Virus record (IMG/VR): IMGVR_UViG_3300037191_001000
Coordinates: 1 to 23,596 of that record
Source: a virus
Length of the DNA: 23,596 nucleotides
Strand: one strand, 5' to 3'
The notes under the pieces were generated by a model. The model saw only the letters and a program-made list of their open reading frames with translations. It searched no databases and had not been told where the DNA came from. The position numbers were made by a program, and so were the translations under genes. Shown one piece after another: positions 617 through 3,720 of the stretch (position 1 is the stretch's first letter; each line of letters starts with the position of its first letter).

Positions 617-1516
617 ATGGCTACTTCGACAACGACCCGCAAGACCCGCAAAGCGATTACCTCTCCTGACCTCGGCGCGGCGCTTCAAACAGCAATTTGT
701 GACGCGTCACAACAAGCGTGGCTCGAAGCACACGACGAAGCCCATCACATCAACGACGCTACCTGGACGGCGGACCAATACGACGATGCGAGCCTGAGTA
801 ACAAAGGCATCGACAGCGCAAGGCAAGCCGAGTGCATAACGCAAGCACACAAGGTTGATAGTGTAGACGCTATGTTGAAGGCTATTGATACCTGTTATGA
901 AGGCTCCAAGCACACAGCATCGGCGCAAGCAATTGCCACCAATATTCTCATGGCCATCACTGAGCTACACTTTGCTGGTGAAATTGTTACTGACAACGCT
1001 TACACTCAGGCAAAGCTTCGTATTCTGAACCTGTACGGTAAAAACGGTAAAAACGGTGCTCAGCGTCTCGGCAACAAAGATGAGATTGTGGGCGGTACTC
1101 CCGAAGCAATCCGGCTAGCTGAAGGCGTCAAACGTGACGCTACTCTCCGCCAGTGCCTTAGCCGTGCTAACAAAGCACTGCAAGATATGGGCGCCTTGAC
1201 CTGCACCGAAACAACGAAGGAAGCATGGTCGCCAACCAAGGAGGGTTTCATGCTGAAGGAAAAAGATATCAAGGCTAAGTCTAGCCTAGTTGAGTTAGCT
1301 AAGAAGTTTGACGACAATCACGGCGATGCTGAGACAGCCGAGGCTATCGTTAAACTCGTGTATCAGATGGCAATGAGCCATGCGGCATTGCTTGAAGTGG
1401 TAGGTACCGTCAAGGCGGACACCAATGCCCAGCTCGAAGGGAACGGGATCAAGTTGGCCGAACGTGCGAAGGTACTTGATGCCATCAGCAAGGCATTCGG
1501 AATCAAGACAGACTGA
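617..1516 (+). CDS. First gene, 299-residue protein of unknown function
   Basis: I do not recognise the family. The protein is soluble-looking and mostly helical, with an N-terminus rich in Thr, Arg and Lys (residues 2-12), an Ala/Gln-rich segment and many Lys/Glu in the C-terminal half. No membrane segment or convincing helix-turn-helix is visible. AGGAAT precedes the ATG by about 8 nt. A perfect copy of the 16-bp palindrome (697-712) lies about 80 bp inside the coding sequence, and another overlaps the stop codon, followed at once by a terminator. The gene is therefore a self-contained unit flanked by candidate operator sites. Autoregulation, with this protein as the operator-binding factor, is a hypothesis only. 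Confidence 0.85.
   Translation: MATSTTTRKTRKAITSPDLGAALQTAICDASQQAWLEAHDEAHHINDATWTADQYDDASLSNKGIDSARQAECITQAHKVDSVDAMLKAIDTCYEGSKHTASAQAIATNILMAITELHFAGEIVTDNAYTQAKLRILNLYGKNGKNGAQRLGNKDEIVGGTPEAIRLAEGVKRDATLRQCLSRANKALQDMGALTCTETTKEAWSPTKEGFMLKEKDIKAKSSLVELAKKFDDNHGDAETAEAIVKLVYQMAMSHAALLEVVGTVKADTNAQLEGNGIKLAERAKVLDAISKAFGIKTD
697..712. promoter_or_regulatory. Operator-like palindrome, copy 1
   Basis: TTGTGACGCGTCACAA is a perfect 16-bp palindrome and belongs to a family of five sites in 697-3720. This copy is inside the 5' coding part of the first gene (617-1516), where a bound protein could block elongation. Confidence 0.6.
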
Positions 1517-1538
1517 TTTGTTACACGTCACAAATCAG
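1513..1538. promoter_or_regulatory. Operator-like palindrome, copy 2, in an extended dyad
   Basis: The core TTGTTACACGTCACAA (1518-1533) matches the family with one G-to-T change. It is extended by arms CTGATTTGT (1513-1521) and ACAAATCAG (1530-1538), giving a 26-bp dyad. It contains the stop codon of the first gene, and its right arm overlaps the left arm of the terminator at 1533-1568. Confidence 0.55.
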
Positions 1539-1574
1539 GGTCCAGGCTTTCGAGTCTGGACCCTGATTATTTTT
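1533..1574 (+). terminator. Rho-independent terminator after the first gene
   Basis: AATCAGGGTCCAG (1533-1545) pairs perfectly with CTGGACCCTGATT (1556-1568). Inner pairs bring the loop to UUCG (1549-1552). The 3' side continues into ATTATTTTTA. It lies 17 bp past the stop codon at 1516. The strength suggests the first gene is transcribed separately from the genes that follow. Confidence 0.85.
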
Positions 1575-1614
1575 AGCAACTACGGTCACGCGATAAAGGT
1601 GAGAGAAGGCGATG

Positions 1615-1857
1615 ATGCTACTGAAACACAAAGTGAAAAGCACAGTATCCGAAGGGTATTTGGACAGAGGTACAGCAATCCATGCAGTATGGGCCATCGA
1701 CATGAACGATGATGTTCAATCAGCAATGGGCGCTGGAGTAACATCGTTCAAGGTACTGAGTACCGAACAGGTGAACAAAGAATTGGACAGCTTCAGCGGC
1801 ATGGAATATATGACGCAACAACTACGGTCACGCAACACTAAGGAACCACAAACATGA
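1615..1857 (+). CDS. Small hypothetical protein, 80 residues
   Basis: The family is not recognised. Two adjacent ATGs (1612 and 1615) exist; the second has the better spacing (5 nt) from GAAGG. It is acidic to neutral, with a central sequence that could be a small alpha/beta fold (TAIHAVWAIDM) and a polar C-terminus. The gene overlaps the next start by 4 bp (ATGA). A copy of the short motif ACTACGGTCACG lies about 26 bp upstream and a second lies within the 3' end of the gene. Confidence 0.6.
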   Translation: MLLKHKVKSTVSEGYLDRGTAIHAVWAIDMNDDVQSAMGAGVTSFKVLSTEQVNKELDSFSGMEYMTQQLRSRNTKEPQT

Positions 1858-2120
1858 AAGCAAGAAACTGCGTATCGTGCGATACAGCGTTAACAAGAAG
1901 AAGCGGCAAGTATACAAACAGCTTATCCCCAAATACCAAGCGTTCGCGCACAGAGACACCCAAGCAATTCTTGGTCCGCGTGTGCTGTTCGGCAAAGTGT
2001 GGAGCAGCGCACCGAAGCGAGAATCGGCGACGGAAAGCCCTAGGTGTACAAGTTGACCCAATCATGCCTGCATGGGCATCGACGCCAGGGCCAAGAAATT
2101 ACGCAGGAATGTGGCGATGA
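1854..2120 (+). CDS. Small basic zinc-finger protein, 88 residues
   Basis: CVSC near the N-terminus and CCSAKC around residues 44-49 form a probable four-Cys zinc site. A strongly basic stretch (HRSENRRRK) follows. The pattern resembles short phage DNA- or RNA-associated zinc proteins, but the family is not identified. Start and stop are coupled by ATGA to the genes before and after, so it is translated as part of a small operon (1615-2341). Confidence 0.65.
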   Translation: MKARNCVSCDTALTRRSGKYTNSLSPNTKRSRTETPKQFLVRVCCSAKCGAAHRSENRRRKALGVQVDPIMPAWASTPGPRNYAGMWR

Positions 2121-2341
2121 AGCCTAGAAGTTATCGTCATGGAAGCAAGGTTATGATGAATGAAATAACACAGCTCGAAGCAAGGTTACAAAGGGTTGAG
2201 GCCAGGCACCTCAAAGCTGTAGTTGAATTGGGCAAATGCTCTACGACGTTCGACGCTACCTGTGCAAGAATAGATATAAATGCTGCGGACATGTTAATAA
2301 GCAAGATACAGGCAAGGCTGGACACCTTGCTCGCTTTATAA
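2117..2341 (+). CDS. Small coiled-coil protein, 74 residues
   Basis: The ATG at 2117 overlaps the previous stop (ATGA) and has AGGAA 9 nt upstream. An earlier ATG at 2072 would add 15 residues but overlap the previous gene by 49 bp. After a basic N-terminus (MKPRSYRHGSK) the chain is one long amphipathic heptad-like helix (ITQLEARLQRVEARHLKAVV). It may be a small dimeric partner protein. Function unknown. It ends 8 bp before the tRNA-like element. Confidence 0.6.
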   Translation: MKPRSYRHGSKVMMNEITQLEARLQRVEARHLKAVVELGKCSTTFDATCARIDINAADMLISKIQARLDTLLAL

Positions 2342-2349
2342 AAATCAAC

Positions 2350-2465
2350 GTCCCTATCGACTAAGAGGGTACAGGTTGAACGGCAAGTTCACTTGTAGCC
2401 GATTGGCATAGGTCAGCTCCTCGCTAGGGGAGAAGATGCAGGTTCGAGTCCTGCTAGGGACACCA
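2350..2465 (+). tRNA. Non-canonical tRNA-like element with oversized middle
   Basis: GTCCCTA (2350-2356) pairs with TAGGGAC (2455-2461), followed by discriminator A and an encoded CCA. A perfect T arm abuts it (GCAGG, loop TTCGAGT, CCTGC; 2438-2454). The 116-nt length is about 40 nt too long for a type I tRNA. One parse puts U8, A14, GG and A21 at 2357-2377. Another puts a D-like arm at 2396-2414 and a CTCC/GGAG arm at 2417-2432 with an 8-nt loop containing GCT. Neither gives a canonical 5-bp stem with a 7-nt anticodon loop and U33. It could be a decayed tRNA, one with an insertion, or a tRNA mimic. Confidence 0.5.
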
Positions 2466-3192: not shown

Positions 3193-3197
3193 GGGTT

Positions 3198-3344
3198 ATG
3201 ACACCCCGGGAAAGAGGCTTGGACCGGACAGTTTCACGGTGGATGCTGCACGCAGCGGAACTAGAGGGTACTCTTAGGCGACTAGAAGCCTTGGCAATGC
3301 TCCTGGCTTGTGTGGCTCTTGCTACGGCTATAATCAATTTGTGA
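3198..3344 (+). CDS. Small membrane protein, 48 residues
   Basis: The protein begins with a basic, soluble N-terminus (MTPRERGLDRTVSRW) and ends with a hydrophobic segment (roughly residues 30-48, AMLLACVALATAIINL) that should span the membrane. GAGGG precedes the ATG closely, and the gene follows the exported protein by 5 bp, suggesting joint expression. Its last codons and stop lie inside a TATAAT box and palindrome copy 4, so the coding end doubles as a regulatory site. C-tail-anchored membrane protein of unknown function. Confidence 0.5.
   Translation: MTPRERGLDRTVSRWMLHAAELEGTLRRLEALAMLLACVALATAIINL
3308..3334 (+). promoter_or_regulatory. Candidate promoter P1 with TATAAT
   Basis: A perfect TATAAT (3329-3334) has a weak -35 (TTGTGT, 3308-3313, 15-nt spacer). 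Palindrome copy 4 begins 5 nt after the -10, covering the expected start site. It would serve the gene at 3370. The TATAAT plus palindrome block is repeated at 3690-3711. Confidence 0.45.
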
Positions 3345-3354
3345 CGTGTCACGA
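3339..3354. promoter_or_regulatory. Operator-like palindrome, copy 4
   Basis: TTGTGACGTGTCACGA matches the family consensus with one mismatch in the dyad. It sits over the expected +1 of promoter P1, a classic repressor position. Confidence 0.65.
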
Positions 3355-3369
3355 AAAAAGGTTACGATT

Positions 3370-3699
3370 ATGACTTTAATCACAACAATACCCCGGGGAA
3401 GGCTGTTTAGCATCGACTGGGTAGAAGAGGTAGATACGCAAGAACGTGTTTTACGGGGAGAGGCCATTTGCGTGGCCTTGACAGATATTGACTTAACCTG
3501 TTACAAGAATTTTCATCCTAATGTCGACGATGAACTTAAACATGGTGAACAGATGGTAAGGTACTGGGAAGCCCGAGGGGCATTGGTTCAGATTGTCTAT
3601 TACGAGGGATTGCCTAAGGCTCGGATGCGAGTATCCTTCGAGGGAGAAGGTATATGGTTAGCGGTAGACAAGGTGACAACCACTTGTGAACGGCTATAA
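3370..3699 (+). CDS. Hypothetical protein, 109 residues
   Basis: The ATG at 3370 has AAGG 8 nt upstream; an in-frame GTG at 3346 lies inside palindrome copy 4 and is unlikely. The protein is acidic, with a predicted alpha/beta pattern (FSIDWVEEV, ICVALTDIDLTCY, GALVQIVYYEGL). No motif allows a family call. Its stop codon TAA is part of the TATAAT of the next promoter. It is probably controlled by P1 and the palindrome at 3339-3354. Confidence 0.65.
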   Translation: MTLITTIPRGRLFSIDWVEEVDTQERVLRGEAICVALTDIDLTCYKNFHPNVDDELKHGEQMVRYWEARGALVQIVYYEGLPKARMRVSFEGEGIWLAVDKVTTTCERL

Positions 3700-3700
3700 T
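3673..3700 (+). promoter_or_regulatory. Sigma70-like promoter P2
   Basis: GTGACA (3673-3678), a 16-nt spacer and TATAAT (3695-3700) fit a host sigma70 promoter. Palindrome copy 5 starts 4 nt after the -10. The likely targets are the genes at 3736 and 3825. Confidence 0.65.
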
Positions 3701-3704
3701 CAAT

Positions 3705-3720
3705 TTGTGACATGTCACAA
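3705..3720. promoter_or_regulatory. Operator-like palindrome, copy 5
   Basis: TTGTGACATGTCACAA is a perfect 16-bp palindrome that covers the expected transcription start of P2. With copy 4 it shares the whole upstream block from ACGGC through the TATAAT. Confidence 0.7.

Follow-up and report, generated by a model that had tools for sequence, protein, structure and literature searches.

A dispersed family of 16-bp palindromes in the early region of an uncultured phage contig and lineage-specific counterparts in its relatives

The virus contig IMGVR_UViG_3300037191_001000 carries five similar 16-bp palindromes near its left end, which raises the question of whether they form a genuine family of sites and what might read them. 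The stretch analyzed here (the window) is the complete IMG/VR contig of 23,596 bases, a phage fragment that is probably incomplete and, judged from its sequence, derives from a lytic-looking phage. A preliminary description had placed the palindromes at 697-712, 1518-1533, 2473-2488, 3339-3354, and 3705-3720, in coding, intergenic, and promoter-overlapping positions, and had called two of them perfect. All five positions were exact, and copies 1 (TTGTGACGCGTCACAA, 697-712) and 5 (TTGTGACATGTCACAA, 3705-3720) are perfect 16-bp dyads.

Five palindromes in the left part of the contig

A search of the whole window for the word with up to 2 mismatches returned only these five places, corresponding to 10 strand matches. 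By contrast, 100 dinucleotide-preserving shuffles gave a mean of 0.86 matches and a maximum of 5, and none reached 10. The consensus therefore does not occur at random frequency, the outcome that the preliminary description had named as fatal to its proposal, and an origin by chance or coding coincidence can practically be dismissed. On the plus strand, the next matches appeared only at 3 mismatches (3988, 12810, 15668, and 21818), and the reversed pattern gave 0 matches in the window with up to 1 mismatch. In a test independent of the word, the largest family of similar 16-bp dyads with spacers of 0-5 had five members in the window versus 1-3 in 100 Markov shuffles. All five sites are confined to 0.7-3.7 kb of the 23.6-kb contig. 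These results indicate that the family is real and clustered.

Each half-site reads TTGTKAC, and the centre consists of two variable bases. Copies 2 (TTGTTACACGTCACAA, 1518-1533) and 3 (TTGTGACACGTAACAA, 2473-2488) share an identical G-to-T change in one half-site (TTGTGAC to TTGTTAC), and copy 4 (TTGTGACGTGTCACGA, 3339-3354) is changed at the outer edge of the dyad. The one-sided change shared by copies 2 and 3 disrupts a stem pair yet preserves a half-site, so recognition as double-stranded DNA is likelier than recognition as a hairpin. The core TGTGA-N4-TCACA is exact in copies 1 and 5, and the preliminary description was right that this spacing differs from the N6 of CRP sites.

As for placement, copy 1 lies within the open reading frame (ORF) 617-1516, and copy 2 starts one base past the stop of that ORF and touches the 5' arm of an intrinsic-terminator-like hairpin of 16 pairs (1533-1568, plus strand). 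Terminator-like sites in the window early region were no commoner than in shuffles. Copy 3 is located between genes, upstream of a Shine-Dalgarno (SD) sequence and an ATG at 2502, 13 bases before that ATG. Just ahead of copies 4 and 5, separated from them by the 4 bases CAAT, stands a TATAAT box (3329-3334 and 3695-3700, respectively); box and palindrome are within a duplicated 49-bp segment of putative promoter-operator character (repeat D3, plus strand, 3324-3372 and 3690-3738, 80% identical). A -35-like GTGACA (3673-3678) is found just upstream of the second segment, 16 bp before its TATAAT box. The placement described earlier was accurate for all five copies, except that copies 4 and 5 also lie at gene ends: copy 4 includes the stop of ORF 3198-3344 and is upstream of an ATG at 3370, and copy 5 begins 5 bases past the stop at 3699.

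Counterpart families in related phages

Seven contigs encode a helicase 52-63% identical to that of the window over the best segment. The window word was absent from all seven with up to 1 mismatch, and at 2 mismatches seven strand matches were found in three of them, versus 12 for the reversed control pattern. However, one of these relatives (G002, 37.4 kb) carries a family of its own, GTATC-N2/3-GATAC, in ten exact copies. Nine of these lie in the rightward early/replication stretch and one, at 31782, within the final 8.8 kb; the leftward structural part that makes up the first 12.3 kb contained no exact site.

A helicase-alignment scan yielded 29 loci, and relatives were subjected to a de novo palindrome search that requires exact half-sites, with 30 shuffles each. 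Lineages were counted from loci whose match lay at least 3 kb from the locus start, with L006-L008 taken as one; nine of the 29 had too little upstream sequence to be counted, leaving 18 lineages. Families above shuffles, whose maxima were 1-3, were detected in L269 (ATACC-N3-GGTAT, seven copies), L271 (TAGTAT-ATACTA, ten), L272 (GTTACA-N3-TGTAAC, five), L274 (TAGTCT-AGACTA, five, or eight on the longer locus L287), L279 (TAGTTC-GAACTA, four), and L282 (TAGTAT-ATACTA, four). Together with G002, 7 of the 18 lineages thus have a family of their own. No family above shuffles was found in HTVC168P, CRP-403, and MW202475 (each whole), in 45.0 of the 54.1 kb of CRP-2, or in 49.0 of the 54.8 kb of HTVC115P. 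The preliminary description had expected the sites to be conserved in related phages; the word is not, but the arrangement is. Relatives have a lineage-specific palindrome of their own, present in several copies in the early/replication region and differing in word, so the arrangement is not peculiar to the window phage.

L271 contains four further copies with TAGGAT in place of TAGTAT (TAGGATATACTA), and the site is retained. Three of them are followed by TG and combine an SD-like TAGGA with a start codon. Retention of these sites is another sign that a hairpin is dispensable. By eye, TAGTATATACTA copies stand at the apex of longer imperfect inverted repeats at 971, 1141, and 6617 of L271 and at 548 of L282, which are possibly terminators. 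Small sigma-factor-like proteins are encoded upstream of the helicase in two palindrome-bearing loci, L272 (2711-3199; sigma-factor family match, E 1.7e-28) and L271 (8321-8809; judged by eye).

The window word itself, with an RY centre (TTGTGACRYGTCACAA), was found in 71 IMG/VR stretches, at one match place each. Among these loci, L037 (contig G008) holds three exact copies of the wider word, L020 holds two in tandem, of which one is exact and the other has a single mismatch, and each of 11 further loci has one extra match at 1-2 mismatches. The word TGTGACAATGTCACA was found in 54 IMG/VR stretches, more than once only in L037. The exact word was dropped as a marker of a phage group. Positions 3625-3656 of L020, another IMG/VR contig, read TTGTGACGTGTTACAA followed directly by TTGTGACATGTCACAA, an operator-like arrangement. 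A phage-like Motilimonas contig (L210/L211) with two exact window words 23 kb apart and, by eye, a ParA-like gene was set aside as a probable coincidence. The left 3.9 kb of G008 (19 kb) contains three TTGTGACNNGTCACAA and six GTGACAWTGTCAC copies, the latter of the form GTGAC-AAT/ATT-GTCAC and spanning 276-2149 of L091, in the phage early region. The genes of G008 include terminase and portal-type genes; no match to the window helicase was found, in a search that by its own note proves little.

Across nine carriers (the window, G002 as L007, G008, L269, L271, L272, L274 as L287, L279, and L288, which is described below; L282 was left out), 55 of 63 exact sites were intergenic, whereas the coding fraction of the spans predicts 18.7. 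Genes were called with a simple caller of our own, which missed the window gene 3370-3699, so the coding fractions may be underestimated. Watson-Crick pairing outside the cores of 67 sites was 0.55 and 0.42 at flank positions 1 and 2, which some families include in their consensus, and 0.22-0.42 at position 3 and beyond. This low flank pairing points to compact dyads rather than long hairpins, and members of the TAGT-N4-ACTA type have no loop beyond the dyad. The preliminary description had read the palindromes as sites of a dimeric protein. Compact dyads with little hairpin extension, the tolerance of one-sided changes, and the position of two copies just downstream of -10 boxes support this reading, and such a protein probably binds them.

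Possible regulator and rival explanations

We consider it moderately likely that the palindromes are dispersed, lineage-specific operators through which one regulator, phage-encoded and dimeric, controls early transcription. As a dimer, it would recognize a pair of TTGTKAC half-sites in double-stranded DNA. Bound to copies 4 and 5 (3339 and 3705), it would lie over the start-site region of sigma-70-like promoters (about -2 to +14, assuming a start 7 bp past the -10 box) and block initiation. Elsewhere, at gene ends, before ribosome-binding sites (RBSs), and inside gene 1, it might act as a road-block or by bridging several bound sites. Early transcription would be throttled or shut off as the protein accumulates, or silenced in superinfection. 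A site word particular to each lineage is expected if protein and sites co-evolve.

The leading candidate for the cognate regulator, by position only, is the first rightward early gene (617-1516, plus strand, 299 aa), which contains copy 1 and ends one base before copy 2. It matched no family at its cut-off, and an AF2 model built on a forced alignment was uninformative (pLDDT 40) and was not used. Alternative candidates on the plus strand are a small Cys-containing ORF (1854-2120, 88 aa), with a Pfam treble-clef match below cut-off only (E 0.49), and another small ORF (3825-4055, 76 aa) with no matches. A left-end early gene with a palindrome near one or both ends is present in the window, G002, G008, L274, L279, and L288. 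In the last three, these genes are homologous and share the motif W-T-Q-A-K-S-D-I-K; a similar gene of L271 has W-V-Q-Y-R-S-D-Y-K, with no significant pairwise match to this family. L288 was retrieved solely through homology of this early protein, and it carries its own six-copy family, TAGTCC-GGACTA, two copies of which (396 and 1403) flank the candidate gene (667-1311); in L274 the homologous gene spans 1226-1912. This is one successful prediction, not many, and the L274, L279, and L288 phages may share other early genes.

The N-terminal domain of this family (residues about 11-110) is predicted to comprise five helices, with 10-residue confidence means of 87-96, dips of 68-73, and 66 for the whole model. 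Against viral models, the L288 protein gave six matches at probability 1.00, two of them with E ≤ 0.001 and none with a function; the best Z score in VIA-align was only 3.6. The structure match V5YTR4 was taken to be ORF-59 of PPpW-3, both being 183 residues long. Profile comparison of ORF-59 with the L274/L279/L288 family was not significant, and in MR5 and phiB1_1 GenBank relatives of ORF-59 are encoded close to the left end of the genome. The viral structure matches lead to Pseudomonas phages in which, over the stretches retrieved, a palindrome family is absent or weak. It is possible, but rather doubtful, that the left-end early gene encodes the palindrome-binding protein. Still more tentatively, the gene may encode a regulator of a new all-helical DNA-binding fold (an N-terminal five-helix domain with a W-x-Q-x-K-S-D-x-K motif, a linker, and a C-terminal helix) that reads the lineage-specific palindrome. 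Word and protein would then co-diverge into specificity groups that are blind to, or silence, one another.

Several observations weigh against the operator reading or its candidate protein. Promoter-like sites in 1-9500 numbered 8 against a shuffle mean of 9.4, and with no such excess the TATAAT context of copies 4 and 5 is suggestive only. Eight of the 63 sites in the nine carriers lie inside called genes, and G002 and G008 mix N2 and N3 spacers, which is unusual for one rigid dimer. The exact-half-site method counted no family in 11 of the 18 lineages (L267, L268, L270, L273, L275, L277, L281, L283, L284, L285, and L286). L270 has three AAATGT-ACATTT copies against a null maximum of 2 and was left out as borderline, and L284 has three ATATA-type copies, also against 2, left out as AT repeats. 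The same method found in the window itself a family of only three, equal to its null maximum; these 11 negatives are therefore weak evidence. No DNA-binding family was matched at cut-off by nine early window ORFs in Pfam or by ten in PHROGs. Only the window, G002, and G008 have the candidate as their first rightward gene; in L269, L271, L274, L279, and L288, it comes after other ORFs. No homology to the L274/L279/L288 family was detected for the candidates of the window, G002, G008, and L269, which are positional equivalents only. The fold of the L288 protein had no PDB match with E ≤ 0.001, nor was there a solved match for the well-predicted domain. Despite a structurally similar protein, PPpW-3 (whole) and MR5 and phiB1_1 (first 16 kb each) show no palindrome family. 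DDSR119 (L302) and Torfinnsbu (L303), which also have a structurally similar protein, carry only a weak dispersed GTCAA-N5-TTGAC family. In DDSR119, it amounts to 8 exact sites in 30.9 kb and 2 in the remaining 22 kb, or 17 and 10 when 1 mismatch is allowed, and it was not relied on, being partly coding background. Some of the DDSR119 and Torfinnsbu sites overlap TTGACA -35-like boxes, and both phages have annotated partition proteins.

The preliminary description had also considered a host regulator as the binder. The palindromes could be read by a transcription factor or a nucleoid protein of the host, similar to CRP/FNR or, in G008, to MatP, with the phage borrowing or suffering its control. 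The window half-sites do resemble CRP half-sites, and the G008 copies GTGACAATGTCAC (GTGAC-N3-GTCAC) fit the consensus of the MatP site matS, GTGACRNYGTCAC. Nevertheless, of 369 Gammaproteobacteria genomes, the only group covered by the count, just 2 contained TTGTGACNNGTCACAA, and one of these was the central genome, chosen for having the word. Among the matches listed in genome contigs, the word was scattered over phyla, and ten matched genomes tested hold 1-2 copies each. Because the word is rare in these genomes and changes between related phages, and given a spacing unlike that of CRP, we regard a host reader as unlikely. Recombination linkers, short conserved stretches that mark gene junctions and help relatives exchange modules, would suit the 55 intergenic sites, many of them near stop codons or RBSs, and the duplication that contains copies 4 and 5. 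Linkers need sequence identity and not dyad symmetry, however, whereas most copies are symmetric and the centre varies in several families; copy 1 lies within a gene, and shuffling between lineages that share no word would fail. This explanation is likewise unlikely.

The palindromes could instead act as hairpins, either as stem-loops in mRNA close to RBSs or, in single-stranded DNA, as promoters for a virion RNA polymerase of the N4 type. Several copies precede RBSs, the N3 copies of G002 and G008 resemble 5-bp stems with 3-nt loops, and some L269 variants retain a G-T pair. We nonetheless judge hairpins quite improbable: besides the broken stem pair in window copies 2 and 3, the TAGTAT-ATACTA-type members without a loop, the L271 sites kept with TAGGAT at four places (three forming a start codon), and flank pairing near background at most positions, G002 has both AAT and ATT loops on the same strand, so that no orientation is kept. 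A ParB/Rep-type protein might instead bind the palindromes as parS-like partition sites or iteron-like replication sites. Five 16-bp dyads clustered in 3 kb would fit this, and DDSR119 and Torfinnsbu combine annotated partition proteins with their weak families. But the sites of relatives are spread over several to many kb and adjoin gene starts and ends, and no ParA/ParB family was matched by the 20 window proteins scanned, which makes this explanation very unlikely.

In the window, early and replication genes run rightward and the endolysin leftward. Plus-strand proteins include primase/helicase, DNA polymerase, exonuclease, endonuclease, and ribonucleotide reductase, and the endolysin is on the minus strand. 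In agreement with the preliminary description, which saw no classical repressor gene nearby, the 20 proteins scanned matched no repressor family, and they matched no RNA polymerase or integrase family, all of which a probable fragment may lack. No nucleotide match to GenBank phages was found for the window in near mode or for bases 1-4100 in distant mode. Short-peptide scans, which detect close relatives only, found no IMG/VR homologues of ORFs 617-1516, 5450-6661, and 4116-5453 and no GenBank phage homologues of 617-1516 and 3825-4055; ORF 5450-6661 matched 373 GenBank phage records. Rfam gave a single sub-threshold match. The leader upstream of the early genes contains two Fur-box-like sequences, AATGCGAATCATTCTCATT and AATGACATTCATTCTCATT, at 43-66 and 478-501 (repeat D8), three tandem 10-bp units GGTTTCGAGG at 119-153, and two long inverted repeats (259-279/378-398 and 393-421/506-534), one composed of TGACCAATGGTCA-like palindromes. 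The 9-mer CTACGGTCA occurs five times, all on the plus strand (1580, 1822, 2755, 3728, and 7340), four of them among the palindromes, and at two places it encodes Tyr-Gly-His within ORFs. Positions 2351-2464 resemble a tRNA remnant by eye (GTCCCTA ... GGTTCGAGTCCTGCTAGGGACACCA) that ends shortly before copy 3; ARAGORN reported no tRNA.

Implications and relation to known systems

The early palindrome sets suggest a little-studied phage control system in which a phage protein acts on a signature site repeated between genes. No prior report of such a system was found in the open PMC literature, which is no proof of absence. Genome-specific dispersed repressor sites are already known from temperate phages; palindromic, lineage-specific families in phages without a visible lysogeny module suggest a general system of early-gene control or superinfection specificity. 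If word and protein do co-diverge, the result would be a repressor-type immunity code without a classical repressor in lytic-looking uncultured phages. Since sequence alone suffices to predict the sites, there is a concrete route to the binding protein, namely to try every early product on the word of its own phage and on those of relatives.

CRP/FNR sites read TGTGA-N6-TCACA or TTGAT-N4-ATCAA, whereas window copies 1 and 5 read TGTGA-N4-TCACA. N4-type virion RNA polymerase promoters are oriented and have an intact stem of 5-7 bp and a 3-nt loop; in the window, the stem is broken in copies 2 and 3 and the centre is 2 nt. Lac-type and lambda-type operators are the known comparison for a dyad over a transcription start, and copies 4 and 5 likewise overlap a probable start. 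Unlike those operators, the window has five dispersed copies with a variable centre, and no such repressor family was found among the window proteins scanned. With the MatP site matS, the palindromes share several sites per region, and the six G008 copies fit the matS consensus GTGAC-RNY-GTCAC; the window centre is 2 bp and not 3, and the sites cluster in 3 kb of a phage early region. In the cited account, 23 matS sites are spread over 800 kb of chromosome (PMC3330122).

In cluster A mycobacteriophages, stoperators are binding sites of the phage repressor, a short word repeated in the genome whose motif differs slightly from one genome to the next (PMC6550527). As described there, they belong to temperate phages with an L5-type repressor; they lack symmetry, have a 13-bp core, and mostly share one orientation. 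The window palindromes resemble them in that one short word is repeated in a phage and relatives have genome-specific words, but they are 16-bp dyads without the asymmetric 13-bp core, in lytic-looking phages. Stoperators, as far as that account goes, occur in many copies genome-wide, and the window has five, all in its left 3.7 kb. The window proteins scanned, from a contig that is a fragment, matched no repressor family. SPBRE, a 15-bp motif in promoter regions of the Bacillus prophage SPbeta, was, by the cited description, likewise a repeated intergenic element found in silico before its binding protein, MrpR, was known (PMC10516654). The window sites share the repetition at intergenic places, but SPbeta is a Firmicute prophage and a different type of phage (PMC10516654). 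On our analysis, the window palindromes would work in the manner of stoperators or of SPBRE.

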